A stretch of 64,000 nt of DNA from Candidatus Methanomethylophilus sp. 1R26 (GCF_001481295.1 NZ_LOPS01000050.1:1-64000); one strand, 5' to 3'. Shown: positions 26,518-45,256, numbered from the stretch's first letter. Program-made: numbers and translations. The notes: generated by a model not told the origin, from the sequence alone.

Positions 26518-26562
26518 GGTATCTTCGTTTCATGGGAGGGGCAGAAGCCCCTCCCGGCAGCC

Positions 26563-27935
26563 TCAGGCGTAAGTGTTCAGGGTCGCCAGGTCGAAGTACT
26601 CGATACCGGCGAAATCCGAAGCGCTGTAGTCGGAGTGGTAGGACGAGATATAGTCGGCGAACATCGCGTCGACGTCGAAGCTGAACCTATCCGGGTACAG
26701 ATGGTTGGCCAGATACGCGCACGCGATATAACTGGCAGGCCCCATGTAGACTCCCTGGGTCAGGAACAGGACCTTGCCGTCCCTGTATGCCTGAGTATGA
26801 TCGATGGCCTGGACATACTTGTTGTCTGTGTTGGTGAGCTGGTCGACCTCTTTGCCCTTGGTCTCCTCAAGCGTCGTGTAGGTCTCGAGGAACCCGAAGT
26901 AAGTATCGAGGACGATCCAATCGGGTTTCATATTGCGGGCGACCTCCTCGAGATCGATGCTGCCGTTCGTATAACCGGCGTCAATGGGCGTCCTCCCGCC
27001 CGCCAGGGTGACGAGCTCATGGATACCGTTGTGCATGGTGGAGATGCTGGTCCCGTTGTATGAGGCGAACACCAGCGGCCTGTCCTTCAGCTCTACTCCG
27101 GAAAGCTCGTTCTCGATGGTCTTGTAGACCGCGTCCGCCTTCTCGGCGTATTCGTAGGCTCCCTCCTCGTGAGCGGTCAGGTAGCGAGGGTGATCACAGC
27201 AGGCACGGACTGGTTGTCCTCCCAGAACGGAAGGCGGACCACGTCGCACCCCAGAGGGGCCACGGTGCTCTCCATGTTGGAGTCGAACCATGCTCTGGTG
27301 CCGGAAAGGATGTAGCTCGGAGGGCTGTCCTTCATGACCTCATAATCAGGAGTGAAACGGCTGCCGAAGCATTTCGTGTTCTCGTTGTCGAAATCGGAAT
27401 ACCACTTGTGGTACGAGCCGTCGTTCCCGACCTGGTCGCAGATGTACCTGACGGTATCCACCGCGCCGATGATCTTGAGCGACTCGTAGTTGCTCTTGTA
27501 TCCGACGGCCGCAGTGGTGAGGGGGTAGGTGCAGGAGCTGATGACCCCATCCACATCGTAGAAGTAGATCTTCATGCCCTCTTTGCGGTCGACCATGTCC
27601 TGGACCATCTGAAGATCGGTCTCATCGATCGTCCCGTCGGCATTGGCATCCGCGAACGACCTCTTGGCCACGCTGCCCTTGTATTCCTTGTAGCAGCTGA
27701 AGTACACCGGCTCCTTCTCGCCGGCGAGGATCGCTTTGATCTCGTCGACATCGTCGCTGTTGATATAATCGTCGTTGTTCGCGTTCCCGAAAACGGTCAG
27801 GCGCCCGACCATGTTGTTGCTGCTGGCAACATCATCGTCATCGCTGTTGTTGATCGCCAGCACAGCGGCGGCGCCGCCGACGACGAGGATGGCCACGATG
27901 GCGGCCGCCCATATCATTTTAGAATTCATTTCCAT
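26563..27935 (-). CDS. Periplasmic-binding-protein-type receptor with dockerin-like repeats, set 1 (one frameshift)
   Basis: An N-terminal membrane anchor (MIWAAAIVAILVVGGAAAV) and an Asp-rich linker lead to two Ca-binding dockerin/EF-hand-like loops (GNANNDDYINSDDVDEI and DANADGTIDETDL). The FecB/BtuF-type binding domain follows from about residue 115. The frame breaks near 27190 (VITL, then YLTAHEEGAYEYAEKAD), one base missing. Start ATG 27935 or 27929 (MNSKMIW). The operator palindrome ends four bases upstream. It would capture ligand outside the membrane for the 24690/23906 transporter. Confidence 0.88.
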
Positions 27936-27938
27936 CAC

Positions 27939-27955
27939 TTGGACTATACATCCAA
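27939..27955. promoter_or_regulatory. Operator palindrome, set 1 promoter
   Basis: TTGGACTATACATCCAA. One base from the consensus TTGGATTATANATCCAA seen at four other promoters of the locus. The central TATA is the likely TATA box, so a bound repressor would block TBP. The binding-protein start codon follows directly. Confidence 0.75.
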
Positions 27956-28035
27956 TGTGTAACGCTTCCGAATGTCATGATATAAAGTTAACCTAGACTG
28001 CCGTTTACATCTGAATAAAAATTCATTTATCTGGA

Positions 28036-28052
28036 TTGGATTATAGTTCCAA
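28036..28052. promoter_or_regulatory. Operator palindrome before the first methyltransferase-ArsR gene
   Basis: TTGGATTATAGTTCCAA, 22 bases before ATG 28075. Suggests that this fusion gene is itself under the common control, perhaps by its own product. Confidence 0.75.
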
Positions 28053-28074
28053 CTGCTGCCCGGAAGGTGTCCGA

Positions 28075-29250
28075 ATGACAATGTTGAAAGAAGAGCCAGC
28101 ATCCTAAGTATCTGCAGGTCCGGAGTCCCTGGAGGACAGGATAAGGGAATATTGGAACATGAGAGCTGCGGGTTACAGCCGCGCCACGCGCGTATCGATC
28201 AGGAAAGAGCGCGACCGCATCCTCCGCATCATCGGCAGCTCCGTCAACCTCGACCGGCGCCTCAGGGTCGCCGACATCGGCACCGGAGCCGGACTGACCG
28301 CGATCCAGCTGGCGCTCAGGGGGCATGAGGTGACCGCTGTCGACAATTCCCCCGAGATGCTGGACCGCGCCCGCGAGAACGCCTCGATGGCCGGGGCCGA
28401 TATCGAATTCATCCTCGGAGACGCACAGGGCCCTCCTCTGAAGAAGGGCTCCTTCGACCTGGTTGTGTCGCGCAACACTGTCTGGAACCTGACCGACCCG
28501 GCCGGCGCGTATTCGGCATGGAAAAAACTCCTGCTCCCGGGAGGAAGCATAGTGGTGATAGACGGCAACTATTACCTCGACCTTTATGATGAAGACTACC
28601 GCCGGCGCTCGCGGTACATGGAGATGACCAAGCACGGGATGAACGACGGCCTGCATGCGGAGACCAACGTGGACCATGTGGACTTCAACATCATCCGGAA
28701 CATAGCCAGAGAGCTTCCCATGAGCCGCGCCAGGAGGCCGGCGTGGGATGTTTCCGCCTTCATGGGGATAGGCATGACGGACATCCGCGTGAGGTCGCTG
28801 GACAGCCAGCCTTATTCCGTCCTGACGCGCAACGGGCTGACCGAGCTGCCGTCGAACTTCGTCATCAGCGCCAAGTCACCTTCCGGGGACGTCAGCCCGC
28901 TGGAAGACGCCACCAGTTATCCCATAATCGACACCGGCGACGTCCTGGGCATCCATGGCTACGCGGATGCCTTCGAGAAGAACATCATGCTCGTGCTGAA
29001 GGCCATGTCGGACGAGAAGCGCATGCGCATGATCTCGGCTCTGATGGCGGGGAGGCTGAACGTCAGCCAATTGGCCGAAGTATCAGGGTGCTCCCAATCG
29101 CTGACTTCCCATAATCTCCGGTTCCTGAAGGACGCCGGCGTGGTGGAAGCAGAGAAAAGCGGCAAGGAGACCCTCTACCGCCTGTCGGACAGACAGTGCA
29201 TCAGGCACATTGTGGAGATGTGCGAGGTCATCCGCGACAAGAAGAAATGA
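28075..29250 (+). CDS. SAM methyltransferase fused to ArsR-type HTH, copy 1
   Basis: ATG 28075 is followed after ten codons by an in-frame TAA (28105), beyond which the same frame continues DRIREYWNMRAAGYS, a segment conserved in the sister genes. So either the TAA is an error or translation starts at ATG 28159. Motif I is VADIGTGAGLTA, followed by GHEVTAVDNS and VIDGNYYLDLYDEDY. From about residue 285 an ArsR winged helix follows (SDEKRMRMISALMAGRLNVS, then SGCSQSLTSHNLRFLKDAG, EKSGKETLYRLSD). Methyltransferase plus ArsR in one chain suggests a sensor that binds or modifies the ligand and controls the operators nearby. Confidence 0.85.
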
Positions 29251-29282
29251 ACCTGCGCCGAACAGATCTTCGGCCCCGCCTC

Positions 29283-29350
29283 ATCTGAAGTCCGCCGTCG
29301 TCGGCTGCCCGCAGCTGAACTTGCGTCGATGATCCCATCCAGGAGATACC
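29283..29350 (-). pseudogene. Relic 3' end of a second NifK-like gene
   Basis: The bases translate on the minus strand as KFSCGQPTTADFR then stop, almost the same as the end of the NifK-like gene at 34186 (EFSCGQPTMADFR). The DNA match extends about 65 bases with small gaps. It sits right behind methyltransferase-ArsR copy 1, exactly as the intact gene sits behind copy 2. Clear remnant of a duplicated module. Confidence 0.8.
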
Positions 29351-29487
29351 TGCAGCCCCCTGTACTATGACTTTCAGATGACTCAGCATGTCAATCGATA
29401 AGGCAATACAGGGGCGCATGATCTACCGAAACGATGAATTCAAGCCCGAATTTGGATAATGTTTCTTGGATGGCAGAACGTTAACGA

Positions 29488-30252
29488 TTAAGGCATTATC
29501 ACATGCGGCCTGTCGTAATTGCTCTTATCAACGATTACATCCACTCCGTAGACCTTCTTGATGTTCTCCGGAGTTATGACATCGATGATGTCCCCTGCGG
29601 CGATGACCTTCCCGTGATAGAGAAGCGCGCCTTTGTCGCAGTACTTTATGGCCAGGTCCAGGTCGTGGATGATCGCGCACACGATGTTGCCGTCGTTTTT
29701 TGCCAATGACCTGACGGTATCCATGACATCGATCTGATAGCGTATGTCGAGATTCGATGTCGGTTCATCCAAAAGCAGGACCTTTGCCCCCTGGGCGATC
29801 GCGCGCGCCATGAGCACCCTCTGGATCTGTCCGCTGCTCAATCTGTCGAAACGTCTTGCCGACAGCGCCGATACACCCATCTTCTCCATGGCCACCCAGA
29901 CTATCTCGTTATCATGAGAATTGAGCATCCAGGACCCGTAAGGCCGCCTCCCCATCATGACGACTTCATAAACCGTTGGAAATGCTGTTTCGCTGATGTT
30001 GTTCTGCGGAACATACCCCATTATCTTGGATATATCCCTCCTCTCCATGCTCAGCAGGTCCTTGCCGTCATACAGGATGCTGCCTTGCATCGGCTTGAGG
30101 ACCTGATTCATGCATTTCAGAAGAGTCGTTTTGCCCGAACCGTTCGGCCCCAAAATCCCCATGACTTCAGAATCATCGATGCTCAGAGATACATCTTCCA
30201 GGATGGGCGCGCTGGTGTATGAGAACTTGAGGCCTTTGATTTCGAATCTCAT
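29488..30252 (-). CDS. FecE/BtuD-type ABC importer ATPase, set 2
   Basis: 254 residues, intact. Walker A GPNGSGKTTLLKC, Q-loop YVPQNNISETAFP, signature RLSSGQIQRVLMARAI, Walker B VLLLDEPTSNLD, switch IIHDLD. The signature LSSGQIQRV differs from the LSAGQHQKV of sets 1 and 3. It abuts the permease gene by four bases. Confidence 0.92.
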   Translation of the reverse strand: MRFEIKGLKFSYTSAPILEDVSLSIDDSEVMGILGPNGSGKTTLLKCMNQVLKPMQGSILYDGKDLLSMERRDISKIMGYVPQNNISETAFPTVYEVVMMGRRPYGSWMLNSHDNEIVWVAMEKMGVSALSARRFDRLSSGQIQRVLMARAIAQGAKVLLLDEPTSNLDIRYQIDVMDTVRSLAKNDGNIVCAIIHDLDLAIKYCDKGALLYHGKVIAAGDIIDVITPENIKKVYGVDVIVDKSNYDRPHVIMP

Positions 30253-30256
30253 CAGA

Positions 30257-31320
30257 TCACACCGACATCGAATTATTCCTCTTCATCAGCATGTAGACCA
30301 AAAGAGGCCCTCCGACGAGAGCGGTGATCGCACCGACCGGAAGGATGGTCGGAGCGATGACGGTCCTGCCGATGGTATCTGCCACGATCAGAAGGATCGC
30401 ACCCACCAAAGCAGAGGACGGAATCAGATACTTCAGTTCGCCTCCTATAATGATCCTGCAGACCTGAGGGGAGATGAGGCAAACGAAACCGATAGCCCCT
30501 GTGAATGCAACGGCGACAGCTGTGCAGACGCATGCTATCACGATCGCAATCAGACGAACGTTGTTCGCATTGATTCCCAGCGATTCTGCTGTATCGTCTC
30601 CCATCTTCAGGATGTTCAGATCTCTGGAGAGATACAGCGCCGCTACGACGAAGACCAATGCAGTGATCCCTACGTAGAGGACCATCCACATGGAGCATTC
30701 GTTCAGGCTCCCCACTGCCCAGAAGACTATGTCCTTAGTAGTCTCCGGAGAGGCGAAATATTGGAGTATAGTGTTGCAGGCACTGAACACCTGAGATATG
30801 GCAACGCCGCAGAGGACCAATGTGACCGGGGTCACAGACCTTCTCGCAGCTGCCATGAGAATGACGGAAACGGGGATCATCGAGAAGATGAACGCGCTCA
30901 TGATGACCGCAATCGTTGAATTGGTCATCCTCAGTCCGAATGAAATGGCGAGAGCCGCCCCGAAGCAGGCGCTGCTGGATATCCCCAACGTATAAGGCGT
31001 GGCCAGAGGGTTCCTCAGCACCGATTGGACGATACACCCGCCGGTGGCGAGTATCATCCCGACGGCCACGCCCATGAGGACGCGGGGAGCGCGGATCGTT
31101 GTCACCACTATCTTGTCTGCCCTATCCCCGACATCGAATGCGTCGGGGAATATCTGGTTCACCAATATCTTGTAGACCTCGAAAAAACCAATATCCGCGG
31201 ACCCCACGGTTATGGTGTACCCTATGCAGATGAAAACGCCGATGACCAGCAGTAAAATGAAAATTATCCTTTACGAAACAGTCTCCAGACGCCTTCGCGA
31301 TCTCCGGTTTCAGATCTCAT
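30257..31320 (-). CDS. FecCD/BtuC-type ABC permease, set 2 (frameshift near start)
   Basis: ATG 31320 reads MRSETGDREGVWRLFRK. One A missing near 31270 then joins to the first helix (IIFILLLVIGVFICIGYTIT). Family motifs are RAPRVLMGVAVGMILATGG, NPLATPYTLGISSSACFGA and ISPQVCRIIIGGELKYLIPS. Ten helices predicted. Pairs with the set 2 ATPase. Confidence 0.9.
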
Positions 31321-31399
31321 CCAGTCGAACAACGTTTCACCTTTCACACAGACGAAGATTTGATTGGGGTTTGAAAAGGTTTGAAGGTGATCTGAACGA

Positions 31400-32818
31400 T
31401 CAATCGTCCGCTTTCGGCCTGTCACCCCACGCGATGATGGCGTCCCTGTGCTCAGAGAAATCATATCCGTCGAGAGAAAGCCAGTTCACACAGAATTCTT
31501 CCATGTAGTCATCAGGATCGAATCCGGCCTTCTCGCACTGCTCAGGGTAGAATGCCTGAACGAAATATGCTGCGGCCATTATCCCGCCTGTGCTGCCGTT
31601 CCTGAATTCCTGAGGCAGCATGATCAGGTGGTCCTTGTCGATGTTGTTCTGGACGAGAAGAGGCTGATCGGCAACGCCTGCGATGGCTTCGTACATCCCG
31701 GACGCATCCGTGGCCGTCCATCCGCCTTCAGGCACTGAGGTGTCCACGCCTTTCCAGGCGTACCTCTGGAAGTGCATCGTGATGAAATCGACCTTGTGAT
31801 CGTTGAGCCACTCGGCTTCAATCGTGGACCCGTACGCGCCGCTGTCATAGCCGGCGTTTTCCTGAGCCACATTGTAGCCTCCGGCGAGATCTACTGCCTG
31901 ACTCACCGTGTCGGCTTTGAGATAGGCAGAAAGCGTGGCATCGTCCTCGTTCGTGAGATAGTGCCCGTAGTTGGATACCAGGATCCTTTCCTTATCCTCA
32001 TCGCTGATCTGGGATGAGATACTGTAGATCGTGTTCTTCAGGTCGATTAGGAATGATAGATAATTCTCGGCCCGTTCCTTGTTTCCGAATATGTACCCGG
32101 CCTCAAGTATTCCCTGAGCCCAGACCGAACTCTCCAGATTGATGCAGTCCGGTTCATACAGTCCCAGATAGACCACGTCCGTATCGGGAAGATGCTGCGT
32201 GGGGCTCTCCTTCTGCGTAGGGCTGAAGACCAGATACATATCCAGGTTCAGCTTGGCCATTCTCTCCCAGTCTCCACTGAACCACTGGCCGGACTCTGAT
32301 TTCCCCTCGCCGAAGAGGATGTCGGCATAATTCTCAATCGGAGGCCCGCCGGCGATGACGCGGTCACCGACGCCCATGATGGCGCAGATCTGGGCGTTCT
32401 GAACCTGGAACGCATAGATTCTCTGCGGGTTCGTCTTCACCTTCATAAACTCGCCGAGGCCGTCATTGAAACACACGTACGTGGCAGTGTTATTCGCAAG
32501 AGCCTCAGCCTGGGCCTTGTCATCAGAATCCACGACTCCGTTGTGGTCCGCATCAGCGAATGGATATTGAGATCCCCAGTCGATGTCGTTCGACACATCA
32601 TCATCGGAATTGCAGTCGATTATCTTCTGGATCAGATCCGCATCGTCTCCGTCCACAGTCCAGTTTCCGTCAGCATTGCCGTACACCTGAAGGGTCGTTG
32701 TGAGGTGGGATTTGTTCTGGGAATCGTTGCCATCGTCAGACAGTGTGAAAGCAGCGACGGCGGCGCCTGCTGCCACAATAATTGCGACGAGCAGGAGTGC
32801 AAGGATTTTGGTCTTCAG
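31400..32818 (-). CDS. Binding protein with dockerin-like repeats, set 2
   Basis: An N-terminal anchor (ILALLLVAIIVAAGAAVAAF) is followed by two dockerin-like loops (GNADGNWTVDGDDADLI and DADHNGVVDSDDKAQ) and a FecB/BtuF-like domain with QRIYAFQVQNAQICAIMGVG. The reading frame continues upstream of the first internal GTG to an AAGGTGAT ribosome site but has no ATG/GTG/TTG there. CTG at 32818 (or ATA before it) would have to start translation, or a base is misread. About 472 residues. Confidence 0.88.
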   Translation of the reverse strand: MKTKILALLLVAIIVAAGAAVAAFTLSDDGNDSQNKSHLTTTLQVYGNADGNWTVDGDDADLIQKIIDCNSDDDVSNDIDWGSQYPFADADHNGVVDSDDKAQAEALANNTATYVCFNDGLGEFMKVKTNPQRIYAFQVQNAQICAIMGVGDRVIAGGPPIENYADILFGEGKSESGQWFSGDWERMAKLNLDMYLVFSPTQKESPTQHLPDTDVVYLGLYEPDCINLESSVWAQGILEAGYIFGNKERAENYLSFLIDLKNTIYSISSQISDEDKERILVSNYGHYLTNEDDATLSAYLKADTVSQAVDLAGGYNVAQENAGYDSGAYGSTIEAEWLNDHKVDFITMHFQRYAWKGVDTSVPEGGWTATDASGMYEAIAGVADQPLLVQNNIDKDHLIMLPQEFRNGSTGGIMAAAYFVQAFYPEQCEKAGFDPDDYMEEFCVNWLSLDGYDFSEHRDAIIAWGDRPKADD

Positions 32819-32831
32819 TATATCACCTTAG

Positions 32832-32848
32832 TTGGATTATTAATCCAA
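32832..32848. promoter_or_regulatory. Operator palindrome, set 2 promoter
   Basis: TTGGATTATTAATCCAA is a perfect palindrome, 14 bases from the proposed start of the set 2 binding protein on the minus strand. It also lies 127 bases upstream of the second methyltransferase-ArsR gene on the plus strand. Confidence 0.8.
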
Positions 32849-32974
32849 TACGAAATTCGACGAAAAGTAGTATATTATATTTTTTGGAATTGAACAAAAT
32901 AATATCAAAAAATTTTGAAATATTATCTAAAAGATTTGAATTAAGTACATGAACAGTGAAAATGGAGTGGTAAA

Positions 32975-34102
32975 TTGTCGATTTCTGCAGACAGCGATGG
33001 CGGGGAACAGCTGACCGACAATGAGCGCGCAATCATACAGTATTGGGATTCGCATGCTCATGCTTACGGGATGATCGCTCAGATCAGAATGAACATGCCC
33101 AACAAACTGAAACAGATCTTTGAGCAGATCGCCCCCGGAAACAGATCTCTCAGAGTTGCCGACATGGGCTCGGGAATCGGATATTCTGCAGTGACTTTAG
33201 CGGAGATGGGGCATGACGTTACCGCTGTCGATCTGGGCAGGAGGATTACGGATGAGGCAGAGAACATTGCAGAAAGCAAAGGTGTGAAAATAAGATTCGT
33301 AATCTCGAACCTTTATCACACAGGCCTGAAAAAGGGGTCGTTCGACATTGTTTCCGCCGTCGACACCCTCTGCCTTCTGGATGACCCGGGAAAAGCTGTG
33401 ACGGAATGGGTCAGCTTGCTCCGGCCGGGAGGGCGGCTGGTCATCGTAGACGGCAATTATTTCATCACGAAAATAGAGGAGTACAATAAAAGAAGAGCCT
33501 ACTTCAAAATGAAATACGGAAAATCCGAGCACGAGCGCGATCTGGGAAACGGGAGCATCGATTATCCGGCACTGGAGGGTCTGTGCCGGGACCTGTATGC
33601 CAGCAGAGTCAGGAGGCCCGGATGGGAATTGTGGTTCCTCCAAGGCCTCGGGATGAATGAGATTGAGATCGAAACCCTTGATGAGGAGACATTCTATGAT
33701 ATCTCGAAGAACGGGAAAATGCTGTTCCCTGTGAAATACGCTCTTTCCGCCCGCAAGCCGTTTTTCTCTGAGAATTCTGTACTTAATGACACTGACAGCG
33801 ACGTCGATCTCATCAAGAAAATGACTACGGATTCAAACAATGATGATGTCGCAGCAGTGATGAGCGCTCTTTCGAAAAAAGAGCGTGTCAAGATAATCAG
33901 GTGCCTTGAAATGAGTTCCCTTACTGTTTCCGAGCTTATGCTGATAACAGGACTCAGAGAGAACCTCCTATCATATCATTTGAAGGTGCTGAAGGAGGCC
34001 AATCTGGTAGAATCGGAGAAGAACGGCAGGGAGATAACATACATGCTCACAGACAGAAAATCTGCAGCATCGATTCTGAATATCGCAGAAACGATGCGTT
34101 AA
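32975..34102 (+). CDS. SAM methyltransferase fused to ArsR-type HTH, copy 2
   Basis: Start TTG 32975 with GGAGTGG upstream, 375 residues, intact. Motif I VADMGSGIGYSA, acidic end in AVDLG, DIVSAVDTLCLL, and VIVDGNYFITKIEEYNKRR. The ArsR winged helix occupies about residues 290-375 (LSKKERVKIIRCLEMSSLTV, LRENLLSYHLKVLKEANLV, EKNGREITYMLTD). No clustered cysteines for metal sensing in the HTH part, unlike classical ArsR/SmtB. It converges on the NifK-like gene 83 bases downstream. Confidence 0.87.
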   Translation: MSISADSDGGEQLTDNERAIIQYWDSHAHAYGMIAQIRMNMPNKLKQIFEQIAPGNRSLRVADMGSGIGYSAVTLAEMGHDVTAVDLGRRITDEAENIAESKGVKIRFVISNLYHTGLKKGSFDIVSAVDTLCLLDDPGKAVTEWVSLLRPGGRLVIVDGNYFITKIEEYNKRRAYFKMKYGKSEHERDLGNGSIDYPALEGLCRDLYASRVRRPGWELWFLQGLGMNEIEIETLDEETFYDISKNGKMLFPVKYALSARKPFFSENSVLNDTDSDVDLIKKMTTDSNNDDVAAVMSALSKKERVKIIRCLEMSSLTVSELMLITGLRENLLSYHLKVLKEANLVESEKNGREITYMLTDRKSAASILNIAETMR

Positions 34103-34185
34103 CAGAAAATTAATATCTGGCACTTTGAAAATTTGGGATTTTCCCGCATCGGGGATTCTATTTCTTTATCAGCCGGCGATTGCAA

Positions 34186-35490
34186 TCACCTGAAGTCCGC
34201 CATCGTCGGCTGCCCGCAGCTGAACTCTCCCCTGCCGTTGATGATCCCGTCCAGGATATACCTGCAGCCGCCCAGCCCCACCAGGCTGGAGTCCCTGAAC
34301 TCCGCCTTGCGGGCGTAAGGCGCGGAGATCCCCATGCATGAGCACCTGGGGTGCTCCCTCTTGTACTCGGTCGCCTCGTAGCCGTCGGACATGAAGACTG
34401 CGGTGGAGAACGGATCGGGCTCCGCGCCGGCGGCGTCCTCCGCTCCGCATTCCCTCAGGAACGCTGATATCTCCCCGTCGTAAACGGACGGCCCGCAGTA
34501 CTGCTTCCTTACCGATCCGGGGACCAGGCCGAACCAGTCCCGCAGGAACCTCATGACCGGAAGGGTGTCGGAGGGCATCCCGGACACGGCGCAGCACTGC
34601 CCGCGGAAGGCGCGGGCGTCCTTATCGCAGTTGCGGAGGACCCGCAGGCAGCGCTCCTCCTCCCTCCGGACCATTTCCAAAGCGGGGTCGGGGGAAAGAT
34701 CCAGAGCGTCGGAGACGTCCTCCAGGAACGAGCGGACAGCATCGAAGCCGACGGGCGAGCCGGCCTTCGGGACGATGGCCGGGACGCCCTTCTTCCGATA
34801 GACCTCCGCGGTCTTCTCCGAGTTCTCGGGATGGAGTTCGATGACTGCAGAGGATTGGAACGATGCGGGGATATCGCTCACGGACGAGCGGCATCCGATG
34901 AAATGCACCTCTCCGACGCCCATCGCCGAGAGGAGCTCCCGGATGTTCTGCATCCCGAAGTGCCAGCTGCTGTCCGCCATGGTGTAGCCGAGGACGGTCA
35001 GGGAGGGCCTCCGGCCCTCCCCTCCCTCCCCGGCGTACCGTTCGGCGATGAGGGCGGCAGAAGCATCGTAGCCTTCGGCCGCGGACATCGACGAGAGCTC
35101 TGACGGAGCTGAGATGACCCTCCCTTCCGCGCCGGCATCGCGGATGGATTTGTCCTCGTCGGCGGCCTGCAGGCCCGAGGCGAGGGTGTCGATGAGCATT
35201 ATGTCCCCCAGCGAGGCCGCCAGGACCGAGCGCAGCCCCTCGGAGATCTTCCTCCCGGACCCCAAGACCATGTCGTCCCCGTTGAGATAGGTGCAGGGAA
35301 GGGCGGACTGCCTGGACAGGAACTCCGTGCGGCAGCTGCCCGGGTCCTCCCCGAGATACTCCTCGGAGAGCTCCCGCCAGAGGTTCAGGGCGCGGGAGCG
35401 GCATCCTCCCGGCCCGTTGATCATCGCCCTGAGGCCGCACCCCTCGGCGGCCAGGACGGCCCCGATGAGGCCGTCGGGCTGCACTTTCAT
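34186..35490 (-). CDS. Nitrogenase component 1-like protein (NifK/NifE type)
   Basis: 434 residues, start overlapping the NifHD stop (ATGA). The N-terminus PDGLIGAVLAAEGCGLRAMI and NGPGGC carry Cys18 and Cys30, with Cys53 and Cys66 (SALPCTYLNGDD) following, fitting partial Fe-S cluster ligation like NifK (PLGAVLAAEG...HGSQGC). The usual third Cys loop (STC.AEVIGDD type) is replaced by IDTLASGLQAAD. The end GEFSCGQPTMADFR adds another conserved Cys. It should pair with the NifD-like half of the upstream gene. The function is a reductase of unknown substrate. It is not a nitrogenase: no nifENB and no cofactor-binding Cys/His pattern recognised. Confidence 0.82.
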   Translation of the reverse strand: MKVQPDGLIGAVLAAEGCGLRAMINGPGGCRSRALNLWRELSEEYLGEDPGSCRTEFLSRQSALPCTYLNGDDMVLGSGRKISEGLRSVLAASLGDIMLIDTLASGLQAADEDKSIRDAGAEGRVISAPSELSSMSAAEGYDASAALIAERYAGEGGEGRRPSLTVLGYTMADSSWHFGMQNIRELLSAMGVGEVHFIGCRSSVSDIPASFQSSAVIELHPENSEKTAEVYRKKGVPAIVPKAGSPVGFDAVRSFLEDVSDALDLSPDPALEMVRREEERCLRVLRNCDKDARAFRGQCCAVSGMPSDTLPVMRFLRDWFGLVPGSVRKQYCGPSVYDGEISAFLRECGAEDAAGAEPDPFSTAVFMSDGYEATEYKREHPRCSCMGISAPYARKAEFRDSSLVGLGGCRYILDGIINGRGEFSCGQPTMADFR

Positions 35491-37640
35491 CCGCAGCACC
35501 CCCCGGGACCGTTCCCGGCGCCGCACCCGGCATGACCGTCCGAACGGTACGCGACCGCCTCCGGCGGGAGATGCAGGGAGCGCACGATCCTCCCGGCCCA
35601 GTCGAGGGCGCCGTCCGTGCCGTAATACCTCTCGCCGAGGCCGGTCCACGGGAGGCCGGCCCTCCCGGCGCGCATGTCGCCGGAGACGATCAGGTCCGCG
35701 GAGACCTTCTCCGCCTCCTCCCTGAGGGCGCACAGCGGGACCTCCTCGGCCCGGGGGATCTCCGGGTGCTCCGACGGAGGCTCCCCGCGGTCGACGAAGT
35801 TCGCCGGCCAGTGGGCGATCTCGGCCACCTCCATCCCCAGGTCCTGCAGGACGTCGATGTGCCAGTCTAGGTCGAAGTCGGACCTGGTGTAGATCAGCGC
35901 CCTCTTCCCGGCGGCCTTCGGCCGGAGGCGGGAGAGCCCCTCTTCATAGCGCTTTCTCTCGGCGGCCAGGAAGGCCGCGCCGGCCTCCTCCCTCCCGGTC
36001 ATCTCCGAGAGGGCCTTCACCCAGCCTTCCAGCCCTCTCATGCCGTGCATGAAGGGCACCGTGCGCACCTCCCGGTGCGCCTTCACCGCCTCCGCGATCT
36101 TCGAGTAGAGCCCGCGGGGCTCCACCTGCAGCAGGTACCGGGCCTCGGAGACCGCCAGGATGTCCTCCATGCGGGCGGTGTCGGTGAACCCTGTCGCCCT
36201 CCTGAGCCCGAAGGCTCCCAGGATGCGGTCCAGCTCCGCGCGGCCTTCGGCAGCGGCGGCCATGCTGCCGCCCATCCCGAGCATGGCGGCCGTGTCCGGC
36301 ACCGGCTCCCTGTCCCAGTCGACCAGGCCCGCCAGGGCCCTCGCGGCCCCGCCGAAGCACCCCCATTTGGAGCCGAGGAACTTCCTGTCCGAGGGGACGA
36401 CGATGACGTGCGCGTCCTCCAGGCGCATGTCATCGGCGATGCTCTGAAGGTCGGAGCCGAGGATCTCCGAGGTGCAGGTGCGCACCACGAAGATCCACCT
36501 GAAACCGTCAGCGTAGGCCCTCGAGATTGCGTCGCGCAGGGCCCCTGCGTCGCCCGCGAAGGACGACAATCCGTCCACGCCGCTGCTGTAGACGTTGCAT
36601 GCCCTGGCGACCCCTCTGGAGAACGACGTCCAGTAGGTCTCCCTCCTCCAGGCGTACTCGTCGAGGAAGGCGCAGTTCCGGGGCCCGTGCAGGACCACGG
36701 CGGCGTCCGCGATTCCGGAAAGCAGCTCGAAGGCCCCGTGAGAGGTGCAGGCGGGCATGACGAACCTCCCGCGGTAGGAGATCCCGCGCTCGCTGTCGTA
36801 GGAGTCGAAGCCGCAGGTGTTTCGTACTGCGGCGCCGGAGGTGTCGGTGACCGGCTGCCCGGCGGCGATCTGGGTCATGGCCCTGTCTGAAAGCGGGGAG
36901 GCTTTGACCCCCATCAGCTCCCCTTTCATCGCATCCTCCACTGCATCCGCCAGGGCATTGAGCTGCCTCGCGGGCTCCGAATCTGGGAACAGGGAGCACA
37001 GCGTCCTCCCGGCGGCCTCCGCCTTGGAGAACAGGGGGCTCCTGCCGATCTCGGCGACGATCGGCACCCCGGAGGCGGCGGAGAAGGACTCGGCCCTCGC
37101 GCGGTCCTGCGGGTCGCGGCTGTTGAGCACCAGGCCCAGCACGCAGGGCGTCCCGTTGAGGTTGACGATGCCGCGCAGGATGTTGTTGGCGGCGTAGAGC
37201 GCCATGAACTCCTCGGAGACGATGATGAGGATGCCGTCGACGTTGTTCCGGCGCATGGGGACGCTGAACCCGCCGCAGACGACATCGCCCAGGACGTCGC
37301 AGATGCGGACGTCGGTGCCTTCCGGGGTGTGGTCCTCCATGTAGGAGAACATGGCGGTCATGCCCTTGCCGGCGCAGCCGATGCCGGGCTCGGCTCCGCC
37401 GCATTCCACGCAGGAGATCCCGTTGTCGCCTTCCTGCACTGCGTCGCCTTCCTTCTCGGTCAGGCAGTCGAGGAAGGTCCGCTGGGGGACCCCGCCGGTC
37501 AGGAGGCGGGTGGAGTCGTGCTTGGGGTCGCAGCCGATGTGGAGGACCTTGTGGCCGCGGAGGCTCAGGAGATAGGAGAGGTTGGAGGAGACGGCGGACT
37601 TGCCGACGCCTCCTTTGCCGTAGACGGCGAGGCGGTACAT
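35487..37640 (-). CDS. Fused NifH-like reductase and NifD-like catalytic subunit
   Basis: About 717 residues from MYRLAVYGKGGVGKSA (37640). Longer starts at 37658 and 37676 overlap the operator. Residues 1-250 are a complete NifH-like ATPase: P-loop GKGGVGKS (9-16), CDPKHDST (37-44), 4Fe-4S ligands Cys89 (EPGIGCAGKG) and Cys122 (DVLGDVVCGG). Residues 275-717 are NifD-like with Cys298 (VMPACTSHG), Cys323 (HGPRNCAF) and Cys389 (VVRTCTSEILGSDLQ). In F430 synthesis (CfbC/CfbD), chlorophyll and nitrogenase systems these are separate chains. Fusion of the ATP-dependent electron donor to its acceptor is unusual. Very GC-rich compared with the neighbouring transporter set 3. Confidence 0.88.
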   Translation of the reverse strand: MYRLAVYGKGGVGKSAVSSNLSYLLSLRGHKVLHIGCDPKHDSTRLLTGGVPQRTFLDCLTEKEGDAVQEGDNGISCVECGGAEPGIGCAGKGMTAMFSYMEDHTPEGTDVRICDVLGDVVCGGFSVPMRRNNVDGILIIVSEEFMALYAANNILRGIVNLNGTPCVLGLVLNSRDPQDRARAESFSAASGVPIVAEIGRSPLFSKAEAAGRTLCSLFPDSEPARQLNALADAVEDAMKGELMGVKASPLSDRAMTQIAAGQPVTDTSGAAVRNTCGFDSYDSERGISYRGRFVMPACTSHGAFELLSGIADAAVVLHGPRNCAFLDEYAWRRETYWTSFSRGVARACNVYSSGVDGLSSFAGDAGALRDAISRAYADGFRWIFVVRTCTSEILGSDLQSIADDMRLEDAHVIVVPSDRKFLGSKWGCFGGAARALAGLVDWDREPVPDTAAMLGMGGSMAAAAEGRAELDRILGAFGLRRATGFTDTARMEDILAVSEARYLLQVEPRGLYSKIAEAVKAHREVRTVPFMHGMRGLEGWVKALSEMTGREEAGAAFLAAERKRYEEGLSRLRPKAAGKRALIYTRSDFDLDWHIDVLQDLGMEVAEIAHWPANFVDRGEPPSEHPEIPRAEEVPLCALREEAEKVSADLIVSGDMRAGRAGLPWTGLGERYYGTDGALDWAGRIVRSLHLPPEAVAYRSDGHAGCGAGNGPGGCCG

Positions 37641-37659
37641 TCTGGAGGGGATATGCATA

Positions 37660-37676
37660 TTGGATATATATTCCAT
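37660..37676. promoter_or_regulatory. Degenerate operator/TATA before the NifHD gene
   Basis: TTGGATATATATTCCAT keeps one half-site (TTGGAT) and most of the other. Its central TATATA lies about 25-30 bases before ATG 37640, right for a leaderless mRNA. This suggests NifHD-NifK is transcribed from its own regulated promoter, although it also follows the set 3 operon. Confidence 0.6.
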
Positions 37677-38479
37677 CTAAACCCGGAAGATGCAATCCTC
37701 AGTCACTGTTCGAGAATGCTGAACCGAGGATGATATGAGGCGTCCGTGATCGACGATGACCTCTGCCTCTATCCCATAAACCGTTTCCACAGTCTCTTTG
37801 GTAATGACTTCCTCCGGCGGCCCGACCTTGTAGATCTCCCCGGGAGGGCGCATCACTATCACTTCATGAGCATATTTGGCCGAGATGTTGAGGTCGTGGC
37901 TGATCATCAAAACAATCATATCATCTTCTTCGGCAAGAGCACGCAAAAGTTCTGTAACATACACCTGATGCTTCACATCGAGATTGGATGTGGGCTCGTC
38001 TAGGATCAGCATCTTCGGTTTCTGGACCAACCCTCTGGCGATTGCTACCTTCTGATGCTGACCTGCAGACAGTTCATTGAAACCGCGCATGGCCAGATTT
38101 CGATACCCATCATCTTCATGACCTGATGGACTATCCTGAGATCCTCTTTGCTTGTCTTCCATTTCTGACGGCTATAGCGTCCGATCATGATCGAATCTAT
38201 GACCGGCATAGAGAACAGGTCCTCCGTCTTGACTGGAACATAAGCCACCGATTTTGAAAGCTCTTTCAGGGATATTTCCTTCAGATTACGGCCGTCGATG
38301 AAGACATCTCCTGAGGTCGGAGATAGGAGTTTGTTCATGCACTTTATCAGAGTGGACTTCCCGACACCGTTGGGACCTACGACACAGTAGAGGCCCGGTT
38401 TATCGATCCTGAGATTGATGTCACGGAGAACAGGCAATTTGCCGTAGGAGAAATCGACATGGGACAAAATCATCTCCAT
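37677..38479 (-). CDS. FecE/BtuD-type ABC importer ATPase, set 3 (one frameshift; ends in TAG)
   Basis: Start ATG 38479 (MEMILSHVDFSYGK). Walker A GPNGVGKSTLIKC, then a break near 38099 (one base missing restores NLAMRGFNELSAGQHQK), then Walker B MLILDEPTSNLD and MISHDLN. Nearly the same as set 1. It ends in TAG directly followed in the same frame by ATG of the longest NifHD frame, so UAG readthrough would fuse ATPase and NifHD. The operator located there argues that this TAG normally stops translation. Confidence 0.88.
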
Positions 38480-38483
38480 GCTT

Positions 38484-39626
38484 TCACCCCCATACTCTGC
38501 TGTCACGTTTCAGGATTATCCACAGGAACATCGGACCTCCGATGAATGCCGTTATGACTCCCACCTGAATTGTGGCAGGAGCAATTATCGTTCTTCCTAC
38601 AAGATCGGCAAGAATCAGGAGTGCCGCTCCGAACAGCATGGATGCAGGAAGCAAGTAACGGTTGTCTGCTCCTATGAAAATCCTTACAATGTGAGGGGCC
38701 ACAAGCCCTACAAATCCTATCAAGCCTGTGAAACTCACTACTGATGCCGCCATAAGAGCCACGATCACCATACAGATTTCGCGCAGAGTATCGGCATTGA
38801 TACCGAGAGACTTGGCGCTGTCATCTCCGGTAGCAAGAACATTGAGTTTCTTAGACAGGAACTGCAGAGCAACGATGCCGGGAACAACAACCGCCAACAT
38901 GACCGGCACATCATCCCAACCGGCATAGGTCAGAGTGCCGACGCTCCACTGATATATCTCTTGAAGGGACTCGGCATCAGCCCACAGCTTAATCATCGTT
39001 GTGCAGGCGTTGAATATGTACATCACAGCGATGCCTGCCATTATCATGACTGTAGGGGAGGTATTCTTGATCCTCGCAACCAATATGATGACAAGCATCG
39101 GCATGAGCGAGAACACGAAAGCATTGGCCACGATCGAAGTGGATCCGAAGATGCTAATGCCCATGATAGATGCTAAGGTTGCGCCGAACATCGCTCCCGA
39201 TGAAACGCCTGTGGTGTAAGGATCGGCAAGAGGATTCATCAGCGTGCTCTGCATCACGGCCCCGCAGATGGCCAGAGCGGCACCGGTGATGATACCGATC
39301 ACAATCCAGGGCGCTCTGAGATTGATTATCACGTAATCCTTGTTGACGTCCGTTATATTGTCCGTAAGATGGTCCCAGATAATCGCATAAGTCTCCCAAA
39401 ACCCAATATCATACCCTCCTACTGTGAGAGCATAACCGGTAACCAGGAAGATCACGGCCAAACAGATGGCCATGAATACCCATTTCCTGAGAATGTATCT
39501 TGAATAATCCTCATAGGCTTCATCAATTTCAGAACTGTCTTCGGCCTCTTCCCACATCCTGACCGAATCCAGAACAGCTGATTTCAGCAACGGGTCCCTG
39601 ATGACTTCATCTTTCACATTCTCCAC
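38484..39626 (-). CDS. FecCD/BtuC-type ABC permease, set 3
   Basis: 380 residues, intact, start GTG 39626. An acidic cytoplasmic N-terminus of ~50 residues precedes the first helix (WVFMAICLAVIFLVTGYAL). Motifs: [38 protein letters not shown] and [20 protein letters not shown]. Very similar to set 1, so sets 1 and 3 are duplicates while set 2 is more distant. Noticeably AT-richer than the nif-like genes. Confidence 0.93.
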   Translation of the reverse strand: MENVKDEVIRDPLLKSAVLDSVRMWEEAEDSSEIDEAYEDYSRYILRKWVFMAICLAVIFLVTGYALTVGGYDIGFWETYAIIWDHLTDNITDVNKDYVIINLRAPWIVIGIITGAALAICGAVMQSTLMNPLADPYTTGVSSGAMFGATLASIMGISIFGSTSIVANAFVFSLMPMLVIILVARIKNTSPTVMIMAGIAVMYIFNACTTMIKLWADAESLQEIYQWSVGTLTYAGWDDVPVMLAVVVPGIVALQFLSKKLNVLATGDDSAKSLGINADTLREICMVIVALMAASVVSFTGLIGFVGLVAPHIVRIFIGADNRYLLPASMLFGAALLILADLVGRTIIAPATIQVGVITAFIGGPMFLWIILKRDSRVWG

Positions 39627-39672
39627 CAGACATAGAGAGAAAACGGCCGGGCAATGCCCAGCCTGAAAAGTT

Positions 39673-41013
39673 TCAGCTCATTCCGTAGACGATGAGCCCG
39701 CCGCACTTCGTGATATCAGTGTACTTCAGTTCTGTGAAATTGTCAATGGACTCTTTGAAGTAATTCCAGGCTGTTGCTTCGTCGAAAATATCGGGCCACA
39801 TCATGGAACATAACAAAGGCAGAGTACCGATGCCGAGAGTGGTGCCCATCGAATCATAACTGATTCCGAACATCTTGCCGTTCGCATAAGCATCTGTCTT
39901 CTCATACAGTGCAAACTTCTCGTCGAATATCTTCTGCACCTCGTCAGGATCGTCAAGTGCACTCAGAGATGCGACTAACGACACCACGATGAAGTCCGGA
40001 TTCTTCTTCATTATGTCCTCTGTCTGAATCACCGGACAGCTGCCGTTGTCGGACACGATGAGATCATTCATAGGAAGAAGAGACATAGCATAAACATCGC
40101 CGAGCATCGAACCGCTGGGATTCTTGGTATCGACGGTATTCTCCACCAGACTGTCGGGGTTGTACGGCATAACATAGGTGTATTCTTTGGTCAGTTTCTT
40201 GGCATTCTCCTCGATATAAGCTGCCACACCGTCGAAATAGTCGGCATATTTCTGAGCCGCCTCTTCGCAGGAGCATAGGGTTCCGAGAGTGATGATCGAT
40301 GAAATGACGTCAATCCCACTGGCGCTTTGGCCAGAGCCCTTGACCATCAGCACATCAATGCCGATTTCCTTCAGCCGGTCGTATCTGTCCTGGTTTCCTG
40401 CACCGAGAACAGCTTTAACATCAGTCTTCATCAGCAGCTCACTGTCGAATGTGTAATTTGTCCCCACCATGGTGAAGCTATTGCAGCCAGGGAACATGTC
40501 TTCCTTGTAATTGATCACACGATCGGTAGAGGCAGTGATGCGGTCATAAATGCCCAGGGCCATAGCGTCATAACACCCGTAGTACATGTTGACGGCGTAG
40601 TCTCAGGTTATAGGATAGGAAACTGAGTATGTGTTGCCGTTCGATCCGGTGTAGTACATGTTGATTTTGTCGGTCTCGTCGCCTTTGACATCGAGAAGTT
40701 TCTCCAGATGATCAACATCTTTCTGATCGAGCACTCCATCAGCGTTGGTATCAGCATACGGATTCGCTTTGCAGTCCCATCCCCCGTTCGCAATGAAGGC
40801 CTTTATCATCGCAAGATCGTCAGCGTCCAGATCATCATCGTTGTCTGCATTTCCGAATACAACAAGCCGCGAAGGGACGCTGCTAATGTAAACAGATCCC
40901 TCCTTCGATCCATTATCATCATCGTCATCGCTCATCACGACATATGCCGCAACGGCAGCAACCGCTACCACGGCAATTATGCCGACAGTCAATATTGTGA
41001 ACTTAGAATCCAT
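39673..41013 (-). CDS. Binding protein with dockerin-like repeats, set 3, interrupted by in-frame TGA
   Basis: ATG 41013 gives anchor ILTVGIIAVVAVAAVAAYVV, an Asp-rich linker, and two dockerin-like loops (GNADNDDDLDADDLAMI and DTNADGVLDQKDVDHL). After SVSYPIT the frame meets TGA (40603-40605) and then continues in the same frame DYAVNMYYGCYDAMALGIYD through a full FecB/BtuF-like domain. A CGA-to-TGA change is the simplest reading. No sign of selenocysteine machinery is visible. Could be a true nonsense mutation, since sets 1 and 3 are redundant. Confidence 0.85.
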
Positions 41014-41022
41014 CGGAATCTA

Positions 41023-41039
41023 TTGGATTATACATCCAA
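41023..41039. promoter_or_regulatory. Operator palindrome, set 3 promoter
   Basis: TTGGATTATACATCCAA, ten bases before the binding-protein ATG on the minus strand. The best match to the locus consensus. Confidence 0.8.
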
Positions 41040-41229
41040 GTAGGTATATAATGTTTCCATGAGAAATTCGACAACCCCTGAAACCACACGACTATCACTA
41101 GATTTCAAAGAAATGCGTGAAAAAATCAACTTAAATGTGCATTAAACTAGGTTTAATAATTATCATTGATATAGAACGAAATGCGACCAGACCCAACTTT
41201 GACAAATACGTCCGAAAACTGCGGAAACA

Positions 41230-41497
41230 TAATCGGAGTAGAAGACCTAACGATGAAAAGGTTCAGCGAACTCTCTGCGGCCAGCGACCTCACGATATTG
41301 ATGATCAGCCACGACCTGAACCTGGCCGCAAAATTCGCCGAAGGATAATTCTCATGGCCGAACCAGGAATCATCCGCAGCATCGGGACACCTGAGGAGGT
41401 GCTGACGGAGAAGAACATCGAGGAGGTCTACAGGGTTTCCTGCAGGGTCATCGATGACTGCGGTTCTCCGCACATCATCCTTCAGTACATCGCCTGA
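41230..41497 (+). pseudogene. Relic of an ABC importer ATPase
   Basis: Fragments GVEDLTMKRFSELSA and LTILMISHDLNLAAKFAE are joined with the Walker B region deleted. After a further frame change the C-terminus follows (GTPEEVLTEKNIEEVYRV), matching the intact ATPases of the locus. No promoter or start. A decayed fourth copy in opposite orientation. Confidence 0.75.
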
Positions 41498-41500
41498 ATC

Positions 41501-41830
41501 TCAGATCTCCGGCACAACGGCGAAGAACACGAGGTCCTCGTTCCCCTCGCAGATGACAGTGTGAGAAGAACCGCACGGACAGTAGTGGCAGACTCCTGGT
41601 TCAAGTGCCTCTTCCTTCCCGTCGCAGATTGCCTTTCCGTGCCCGCTGATAATGTACTCGATCTCGCGGTTTGAACTGTGGGTATGAAGCCCGACTGTGC
41701 ACCCGGGACGCACGCGCATCATCATGATCTTGACGGCGCCGTCCTTGAAGAGCTTCTGGAGGACGGAGCCCTCGCCGCCCTGGAAGGACTTGATCTCATT
41801 CTCCGGCATGCTGTTGAAGTCGATTCTCAT
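41501..41830 (-). CDS. Small cupin-domain protein
   Basis: 109 residues, single cupin barrel. Metal ligands are likely His in VGLHTHSSNREIEY (two His and a Glu) and His in GSSHTVICEG. Motifs GCTVGLHTH and PGVCHYCPCGSSH fit the two conserved cupin boxes. Stand-alone small cupins may be isomerases, dioxygenases or ligand binders. The substrate is unknown. It lies beside the uptake locus but has its own promoter (TTTTAAATT). Confidence 0.85.
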   Translation of the reverse strand: MRIDFNSMPENEIKSFQGGEGSVLQKLFKDGAVKIMMMRVRPGCTVGLHTHSSNREIEYIISGHGKAICDGKEEALEPGVCHYCPCGSSHTVICEGNEDLVFFAVVPEI

Positions 41831-41884
41831 GCCTGAGGATTTTAAATTGACAGATAAATTGATTTTCGATATTGAAATGAAATT

Positions 41885-41926
41885 ATGAAATCACCACAAA
41901 ACCAATTTTGCGTGCAGTGATTTCAT
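41885..41926. repeat. 10-bp inverted repeat in the gap before the AIPR gene
   Basis: ATGAAATCAC (41885-41894) and GTGATTTCAT (41917-41926) are perfect inverted arms 22 bases apart, in an otherwise AT-rich non-coding gap. Operator or insertion scar; no further support. Confidence 0.4.
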
Positions 41927-42063
41927 CGGCTTCTCCGGAAAACAAACATGCTAGCGCTAAGGTTCTAACATACAATTGTTAGCAAGTTGCTTTTCATCGT
42001 GATGTTAGAAAATTGAATAAATAACCTGTTATATGTAAATACTTGAACGTCTATATCATCAGT

Positions 42064-44174
42064 ATGGAAATGGAAGAATTCAGGCACGAACTGATTTCCG
42101 ACATCAATGAGAATAACGATGACCAGGAGTCCAGAAGAGAAGCGTACCTGGGTATGGTCGTCAATGATCTGACGGAATCCAACGAAGCCGTAGGTTTTGA
42201 CGGCTGCCGCTACAACGGGAAGGCCAAGAACGGGCGCGATATCGAGATCGACGGTTATCATTATGATGAGGACGACGGCACGCTCTGCGTTTACATCTGC
42301 AGGTACATCGGCGGGGATGAAGCAGAGACCCTGACCAGGGCGGAAATCGAGCACCTGCTGTCCCTGGAGACGGAATTCATCAACTCATCCTTCGACGGAA
42401 CTATCGACGAGAACAGCCCCGAAAACTCCCTGGAGCGCAACGTCGCGGATTTCATAGAACTCTACAGAGAAAAGATCCAGAGGTTCAGGCTGTACATCAT
42501 AACCGATAAAGTCCAGACAAGCAGGACCGTGAAGAACCTGAGCATCGATCTCGACGGGAAGAACGCGCAGATCAGCATCTTCGACATCAGGAAGTATTTC
42601 GAACTTGTCAGCAACAGCAAGGATTACGAATCCAGCGAGATCGAGCTCGAGGATTACGGGTATCCCGGAATCAGCTGCATCAAAGCCGACACCGGCGAGG
42701 AATCCGGATACGAGGCCTACCTGAGCATCATCCCGGGCAAAGTGCTCTCCGAGATTTACGATAAATACGGCTTCCATCTGCTGGAGGCCAATGTCCGCTC
42801 TTACCTCAACCACACCACCAAGATCAACAGAGGCATCAGAGGGACCATCGTCAACGAACCCGGGAAATTCTTCGCATACAACAACGGGATAACAGCAACC
42901 TGCTCGGACCTGGAGATCTCCCAGATCAACGGGAAGAGCATGATCACAAAGGTGAAGTCGCTCCAGATAGTCAACGGCTGCCAGACGATGGCTTCCATCC
43001 ACGATGCGGATGCGAACAGCCGTCCGAAGATAGATGTGAGCTCCGTAATGGTTCCCCTGAAGATCATCAAGATTGGCCCGGAGCACAACAGCGACCTCAC
43101 CATGAAGATCTCCAATTACTCCAACAGCCAGAACAAGCTGAGCGATTCGGACTTCTTCTCCAACAGCCCATTCCATATCAAGATAGAGAGGATTTCCAAG
43201 CGCCTCGATGCCCCAGCGGTTGACGGGTCGATATATTCGACCAAATGGTACTATGAGCGCGCCCGGGGCTCTTACCTGCAGGAACAGTCCGGGATGACGC
43301 CCGCTGAACGCAGGAAGTTCCGCGCAGAGCACCCCAAGAACCAGTGCATCACGAAAACGGACCTGGCCAAGTACCGCAACACCTTCGAGATGCGGCCTCA
43401 GTTCGTGAGCAAGGGGACTCAGAAGAACATGAAGAAGTTCGCTGAGACCGTGGAGAAAGAATGGAGCAACACCAAGATCAACGGGGCCTCGTTCACCGAC
43501 AACTACTACAAGGAGACGGTTGCCATGGCGATCATCTTCAAGAATCTCGAGAAGGCCATCATGAACCCTGAGCTAGCCCCTTGGTACCAGAACGGGTACA
43601 GGGCGAACATCGTGACTTATTCCATCGCCAAGCTCGTCTACGAGTTTTCCGAAATAGGCGCCTCCATCGATTACCTCCGCATCTGGGCGGATCAGAGATG
43701 CCCCGAGTGCATCAGGGATCAGCTGCTCAGCATAGGGAAGCTGGTCTTGGAAAAATTACCGCCCCGTCTCACGGGGACGTCAGGGAGTTCTGCAAGAAAG
43801 ACGATTGCTGGACCCTCATCAAGGGGATGGAGATCGACTTCCATCCCGAAGAGCTGAAACCGTACCTCAAGAGCACGGCCCGCACCAATTACGAAAGGAG
43901 AGTATCGTCCCGGCAGGAATCCGACAGAGGAAAGATGAACGCCAGGATAACGGTCGTGAATCTGGGGAACGAATTCTGGAAAAAAGCGGCCAGCTGGGCC
44001 GCTGCTTCCGGAGGATACGGGGGTGGCGAGATCTACCTGCTCAACAAAGGGGCGGAGATGGGGCCCGGGAACGTTCCGACAGAATACGATGCCGTGAAGA
44101 TGCTGAAAATCCTCGAAAAATGGAGAAGGAAGGATTCCAGTAATCGAGGCCTTGCAGCAAAAACCCGGAATTAA
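42064..44174 (+). CDS. AIPR-family abortive-infection protein (one frameshift)
   Basis: About 704 residues from ATG 42064; TTATATG about 38 bases upstream is the probable TATA box. The AIPR core shows NVRSYLNHTTKINRGIRGTI, FFAYNNGITATCSDLEI and LQIVNGCQTMASIH, the conserved N..I/NNGIT/QIVNG.QT blocks. An A run near 43754 has lost one A; restoring it joins LVLEK to ITAPSHGDVREFCKKDD. AIPR proteins are linked to phage abortive infection and accompany restriction systems of the Z1 type. The gene opens a two-gene + strand operon with the methyltransferase. Confidence 0.88.
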
Positions 44175-44199
44175 TTAATACAGGACAGTATTGAGCGGT

Positions 44200-45240: not shown

Positions 45241-45256
45241 TATCCGGTCCTGCAGC

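Follow-up and report, generated by a model that had tools for sequence, protein, structure and literature searches.

Among the genes in a 64,000-nucleotide stretch of DNA from Candidatus Methanomethylophilus sp. 1R26 (the window), one appears to join a NifH-like electron donor (H) to a NifD-like catalytic subunit (D), and a NifK-like gene (K) lies directly beside it. The locus raises the question of whether the two halves are truly one polypeptide, as a first-pass annotation had claimed, and if so what kind of nitrogenase-like enzyme HD and K form and on what it may act. The coordinates of the features are collected in Table 1.

Table 1. Features of the HD–K locus and its surroundings in the window.
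Feature	Position	Strand	Remarks
H–D fusion gene (NifH-like + tether of about 26 residues + NifD/NifE-like)	35487–37640	-	Frame open up to ATG 37676
NifH-like domain	36870–37634	-	P-loop, GCDPKHD, two [4Fe-4S] cysteines (Cys101 and Cys134)
Interdomain tether, residues 282–307	36756–36833	-	pLDDT <50 in model
NifD/NifE-like domain	35490–36749	-	Cys310, Cys335, Cys401; no FeMo-co Cys275/His442 equivalents
K subunit (BchB/NifK-like)	34186–35490	-	Oxidored_nitro; invariant Cys30; ATGA overlap with fusion stop
ABC transporter ATPase, FecE/BtuD/heme type	37677–38506	-	Frameshift-broken, two ORFs in this assembly
FecCD/BtuC-type permease	38484–39626	-	Same strand, contiguous
Substrate-binding protein	39673–41013	-	Weak Peripla_BP_2 match; two ORFs near 40600, probably frameshift
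Second FecCD-type importer (ATPase, permease, substrate-binding-protein-like)	29488–32776	-	
SAM-dependent methyltransferase with C-terminal ArsR-type DNA-binding domain	32975–34102	+	Recurrent beside the window's subclade

A fused donor and catalytic subunit

The fusion is encoded in a single frame (35487–37676, minus strand; 729 residues) with no internal stop codon, and both expected Pfam domains lie in that frame (Fer4_NifH, residues 15–269, E = 1.2e-62; Oxidored_nitro, residues 310–666, E = 2.6e-33), so the joining of NifH and NifD in one chain is real. Many relatives begin at the residue equivalent to the ATG at 37640 (MYRLAVYGKGG), which is therefore the likely start, as first annotated. 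The nucleotide-binding and [4Fe-4S] motifs of the H half are all present (GKGGVGKS in the P-loop, GCDPKHD and the two cysteines), in agreement with the earlier description. The ATG of the K gene overlaps the TGA of the fusion by four bases, and the K protein also matches Oxidored_nitro (E = 1.6e-23). The locus, with its NifH-type ATPase carrying [4Fe-4S] cysteines and its component-1 subunits, thus belongs to the nitrogenase-like (Nfl; PF00142 plus PF00148) systems.

The same fusion is found unbroken, with 91% amino-acid identity, in a complete genome of the same species (G070), a single contig in which the set binding protein–permease–ATPase–HD–K is intact. Other HD-type genes of the window's own genome (G000, contigs C6, C27 and C1) are frameshifted, and unbroken fusions in G070 appear to match those of C6 and C27; the G000 assembly probably contains indel errors. 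The HD–K pair (34186–37676) has a G+C content of 68%, as it also does in G070, against 49% for the neighbouring importer, a contrast for which transfer or different constraints are possible explanations.

Strong matches to the fusion (E ≤ 1e-58) were obtained in 89 of 147 Methanomassiliicoccales genomes, and the fusion was not found in the other 58. Presence is patchy inside genera, up to seven paralogues are listed per genome, and the relatives fall in the Methanomethylophilaceae, Methanoplasma and Methanomassiliicoccus groups (52 of 61 relatives matched, a count that includes stand-alone CfbC-type proteins). In a sample of 341 genomes of the phylum, strong matches were confined to the order. 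A separate scan reaching beyond the order used a seven-sequence D alignment with a single motif (a 21-sequence alignment was too divergent), so that fusions of the window's subclade (RTCTSEIL), and others as well, are poorly sampled there. In total, 60 distinct fusions were collected, a set that does not include the fusions reported from Firmicutes in 2012 (Dos Santos 2012; PMC3464626).

No clean split between the halves was seen among the close relatives inspected. Three apparent splits proved to be two single frameshifts in a fused frame and one gap of Ns, and a frameshift or split artefact was rejected. The fourth (L197) carries an in-frame TAG (6796–6798) in the H–D linker of an otherwise normal fusion, and the same pattern occurs in G095. 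TAG can be read as pyrrolysine in Methanomassiliicoccales, and the codon in the L197 linker may either be read through or divide the enzyme in two; other fusions carry in-frame TAG codons at other positions. The fusion is no assembly accident and is widely conserved.

The predicted HD structure (pLDDT 79.7, pTM 0.61) contains two folded domains separated by the 26-residue segment, and its pTM supports no particular orientation of H relative to D. The spacing between Leu262 and Cys310 ranges from 36 to 67 residues across the family. The K model (pLDDT 87.1, pTM 0.88) matches NifK and BchB structures. Profile searches against the PDB gave NifE, BchB and NifH as the best matches for D, K and H, respectively, and the top hits of a fold search with the HD model were structures of the NifH type. 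The first-pass annotation had reasoned that known systems keep donor and acceptor apart because the reductase must dissociate in each cycle. This is a weak argument, since the low pLDDT of the segment between the domains suggests that H could undock even though it is tethered.

Cluster ligands and family relationships

The cysteines of the fusion are strongly conserved. Cys101 and Cys134 of H are invariant in the 60 fusions, as are Cys335 and Cys401 of D, with Cys310 present in 98%. The three D cysteines, already noted as Fe–S ligands in the earlier description, align with the cluster positions of NifD/NifE and correspond to the three P-cluster cysteines of NifD. A K gene lies beside 58 of the 60 fusions, and in these 58 proteins only Cys30 is invariant (Cys66 occurs in 81%); it aligns with the column of NifK βCys95 and NifN Cys44, adjoining the BchB aspartate. 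A P-cluster takes six cysteines, three per subunit, whereas here three are conserved in D and one is invariant in K. Judged by sequence, this set is the single-[4Fe-4S] pattern of NifEN. The K partner had been called unusual; it does have fewer cysteines, but it is less odd than claimed, as this pattern is that of NifEN. By analogy with NifEN and DPOR, one [4Fe-4S] cluster is predicted for each D–K half, with no large cofactor.

No equivalent of the FeMo-co ligand Cys275 is conserved in the 60 fusions (the column is mainly Gly, Asn, Ser or Asp), and the window protein lacks the stretch that would hold His442. Because the FeMo-co ligands are absent and only 3+1 cluster cysteines are present, the enzyme is not a nitrogenase. 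A fused nitrogenase or FeS-cofactor enzyme reducing N2 or C–S bonds, for which membership of the superfamily is the one argument, is very improbable on these grounds, and the clade of the fusions is also distinct both from Nif and from the bacterial relatives clustering with the Chlorohelix Nfl protein.

When more references were included, the tree placed the fused H domains, among them a bacterial one (L172, Syntrophobacteraceae), in one clade (100/100). The fused D and K proteins form clades with SH-aLRT values of 96 and 100, respectively, and CfbD is separate at 100. CfbC/CfbD, NifHDK(EN), BchLNB and the bacterial unfused Nfl proteins all fall outside the fusion clades. In a larger, quick H tree the fusions are not one group, and a very long BchL branch lies close by; the rooting and deeper branching order are unsure. 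D is sister to BchN at 83, or 78/84, in D–K trees with few references, long BchL and BchN branches and no verified MarD; because of these few references and long branches, this deeper placement is not claimed. The separation of the fused H, D and K from the known families upholds the earlier proposal of a distinct nitrogenase-like type. Placement within CfbC/CfbD, which would have spoken against that proposal, was not seen: H and D lie outside, and the same genomes carry separate CfbC and CfbD. Both the H and the D of L172 join the same archaeal subclade, for which the simplest reading of the sequence trees is one origin of the fusion followed by transfer. Plasmid pTS1 of Treponema saccharophilum (L136, 8028–11201) encodes unfused NifH-like, D-like and K-like proteins, followed by a binding protein, a FecCD permease and an ATPase; T. 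saccharophilum NflHDK was rejected as an unfused ancestor, its D lacking the first cluster cysteine and its H grouping elsewhere.

Comparison with characterized systems places the fusion near, but outside, each of them. It shares with DPOR (BchL/BchN/BchB) and COR (BchX/BchY/BchZ) a catalytic component that is [4Fe-4S]-only by ligand pattern, and probably an organic substrate; its K profile is closest to BchB and its D is weakly sister to BchN. It differs in having H joined to D and in using the invariant Cys30 of K as the candidate ligand instead of the BchB aspartate, and its scores against the BchL, BchN, BchB, BchX and BchY equivalogs are far below the cut-offs. NifEN shares the 3+1 pattern, and NifE is the closest profile to D among solved structures; the fusion, however, lacks the Cys275 equivalent, has H fused and forms a separate clade. 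Among NCBIfam models, H scores best with CfbC, although far below the cut-off (221.6 versus 402); the clades are separate, CfbD has no K partner whereas the fusion has one, and the genomes encode their own CfbCD elsewhere. MarHDK and the group IV Nfl proteins are likewise nitrogenase-like and ATP-dependent, but MarHDK contains a large [Fe8S9C] cofactor (PMC12552129) and a separate H, while the fusion lacks the Cys275-type ligand. The bacterial Chlorohelix-type Nfl proteins form another clade than the fusions, in trees without verified MarD.

The H–D architecture, implied at first to be new, had already been mentioned: Dos Santos 2012 described, in one sentence with 'data not shown', a fused nifH/nifE-like ORF followed by a nifN-like gene (PMC3464626), and one table entry in Borrel 2014 lists 'fused nifH/nifE', a case in the same order (PMC4153887); the quoted passage names M. 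intestinalis. The architecture is identical, a NifH plus NifE-like ORF followed by a NifN-like gene, and the window fusion very probably belongs to the same family. Those fusions were mentioned without sequence analysis, phylogeny, context or function, and no characterization was found in the open-access literature searched. New here are the clade of fused H domains, the 3+1 ligand pattern, the absence of FeMo-co ligands, the importer enrichment, the tracking with CobN and the bacterial locus.

Genomic context and candidate substrates

Given sequence and gene context, the best explanation, to which we assign a probability of about 45%, is that HD–K acts as an ATP-driven low-potential reductase on an imported tetrapyrrole, or on the metal in it, in concert with CobN-type metallation or demetallation. 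The first line of evidence is the importer. In the window the genes for the binding protein, permease, ATPase, HD and K all share one orientation, are separated by short gaps or overlap slightly, and the importer is probably co-transcribed with HD–K. At the corresponding position G070 carries another paralogue of this importer type, whose ATPase is unbroken. Between the two genomes of the species, HD–K has 88.6% DNA identity, whereas the importer permease and binding protein have 56% and 25% identity, respectively; a conserved HD–K beside a differing paralogue indicates that the type of importer is kept while its member turns over. Comparison of window positions 26500–46500 with L142, from the same species, shows about 88% DNA identity in HD–K and one flank, with different importer paralogues between. 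The importer region between the shared flanks is a turnover hot spot.

A FecCD permease occurs in 23 of 44 fusion loci compared with two of 20 random 20 kb windows of relatives (p = 0.001), and any of FecCD, CobN, ChlID or CbiZ in 27 of 44 compared with three of 20 (p = 5e-4). All but a few of the 44 loci span at least 12 kb, and these loci also served to build the family profiles; as the loci are related and not independent, these p-values are optimistic. In roughly half of the fusion loci, the stretch retrieved contains no FecCD permease. The bacterial L172 locus comprises a TonB receptor, HD, K, a Peripla_BP_2 protein, FecCD, an ATPase and a binding protein–CbiZ fusion, and its TonB receptor scores best with heme and B12 receptor models.

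Two further observations concern the neighbourhood. The methyltransferase–ArsR-type fusion occurs twice near the enzyme (28159–29250 and 32975–34102) and is possibly a metal- or SAM-linked regulator. An N-terminal repeat resembling dockerin type I is found on archaeal substrate-binding-type proteins beside FecCD permeases (L142, 1885–3300 and 13892–15232; L057, 11056–12420), an unusual pairing.

The FecCD/FepB-type importers are classic siderophore systems, and highly variable binding proteins accompany a conserved enzyme, as would suit reductive release of Fe, Ni or Co from an imported non-tetrapyrrole metallophore. This role is distinctly unlikely: it explains neither the tight co-occurrence with CobN nor the presence of CbiZ and of TonB genes of heme/B12 type, and known siderophore reductases need no ATP-driven low-potential donor. 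For the tetrapyrrole reading, it nevertheless counts as a difficulty that siderophores and other metal chelates are also cargo of FecCD importers and that the window binding protein is too divergent to name.

The second line of evidence is the distribution of CobN. Across the 147 genomes, 79 have both fusion and CobN, ten the fusion only, five CobN only and 53 neither (Fisher p = 9e-24, with genomes counted as if unrelated). In genomes at least 90% complete the counts are 41, four, zero and 29, so that CobN never occurs without the fusion. The pattern recurs within genera (for example g2, g9, g11, g12 and g15; in g15 the two genomes with the fusion are the two with CobN), which argues for repeated joint loss or gain. 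The link with CbiZ is much weaker (84 both, five fusion only, 39 CbiZ only, 19 neither), and CbiZ was discarded as a specific marker: it is nearly ubiquitous in Methanomassiliicoccales (123 of 147), and its presence is therefore weak evidence. Loci of the Methanomassiliicoccus type have CbiZ, ChlI, ChlD, HD, K and CobN as neighbours. Several CobN genes contain in-frame TAG codons (G036:C4, G094:C1, G099:C4), possibly pyrrolysine. Against the tetrapyrrole reading stand the ten genomes with the fusion and no CobN, the absence of CobN, CbiZ and ChlID genes from the 20 kb fusion locus of the window, the fusion loci that lack FecCD, and the paralogues, which may differ in substrate.

The same genes could serve the biosynthesis of a reduced tetrapyrrole cofactor of a new kind, resembling F430 or a corrinoid; CobN/ChlID would then insert its metal, and the importer would supply precursor or metal. 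CfbCD, DPOR and COR, which are nitrogenase-like and lack large cofactors, all reduce tetrapyrroles in biosynthetic pathways (PMC7242693, PMC12552129). CobN/ChlID normally act in metal insertion (models matched), and CbiX adjoins one fusion (L035). We nevertheless consider biosynthesis unlikely, as the patchiness within genera, the several paralogues and the importer turnover look more like uptake or scavenging than an essential cofactor pathway. Methanomassiliicoccales methanogens depend on corrinoid methyltransferases, and HD–K might instead activate corrinoids, from Co(II) to Co(I), for those of methyl-dependent methanogenesis; this is quite improbable, since RamA-type activases already do so, the fusion was not found in the 58 genomes of the same order and the importer would be unexplained. 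'Cobalamin reduction' had been suggested for some NflD (Dos Santos 2012; PMC3464626), in line with such activation.

Proposed reaction and its significance

For the preferred tetrapyrrole reductase, an (HD)2K2 composition is proposed by analogy, electronically like DPOR/NifEN. The H domains of two HD chains would form an ATP-binding [4Fe-4S] donor. From it, low-potential electrons would pass one at a time to a [4Fe-4S] cluster with three cysteine ligands from D and one from K, and onward to an organic or metal-complex substrate in a putative D–K cavity. The flexible tether may hold the donor near the acceptor and permit undocking in each cycle. HD–K probably acts on an imported tetrapyrrole, of corrinoid or porphyrin type, or on its metal, which would be reduced in the cytoplasm after uptake via the adjacent BtuFCD/FecBCD-type importer. 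A CobN/ChlID-type chelatase, encoded elsewhere in the genome or sometimes adjacent, might then remove or exchange the metal.

HmuS, a CobN relative, is a heme de-chelatase that depends on a reductant, and it is encoded together with a heme importer (PMC12583661). The hmu operon thus resembles the present case in coupling a CobN-like chelatase to a tetrapyrrole importer in gut anaerobes, with reductant needed, but its reductant is derived from NADH and it has no nitrogenase-like enzyme (PMC12583661). It is possible, and we advance it tentatively, that tethered HD–K reduces imported corrinoids or porphyrins so that the archaeal CobN-type chelatase can then remove or exchange their metal.

In the characterized members of the superfamily the donor is a separate protein that binds and then departs. 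With a donor that is tethered in nature, one can test directly if complete dissociation is needed and if the cycle is altered by a 1:1 stoichiometry. The fusion makes up a large family, in 89 of 147 genomes of one methanogen order, with up to seven listed paralogues. The role of archaeal CobN/HmuS homologues was posed as an open question in 2025 (PMC12583661), and the near-perfect co-occurrence of the fusion with CobN bears on it. If the proposal is true, the fusion would represent an anaerobic route of metal scavenging or cofactor conversion in methanogens and would give archaeal CobN homologues a role.
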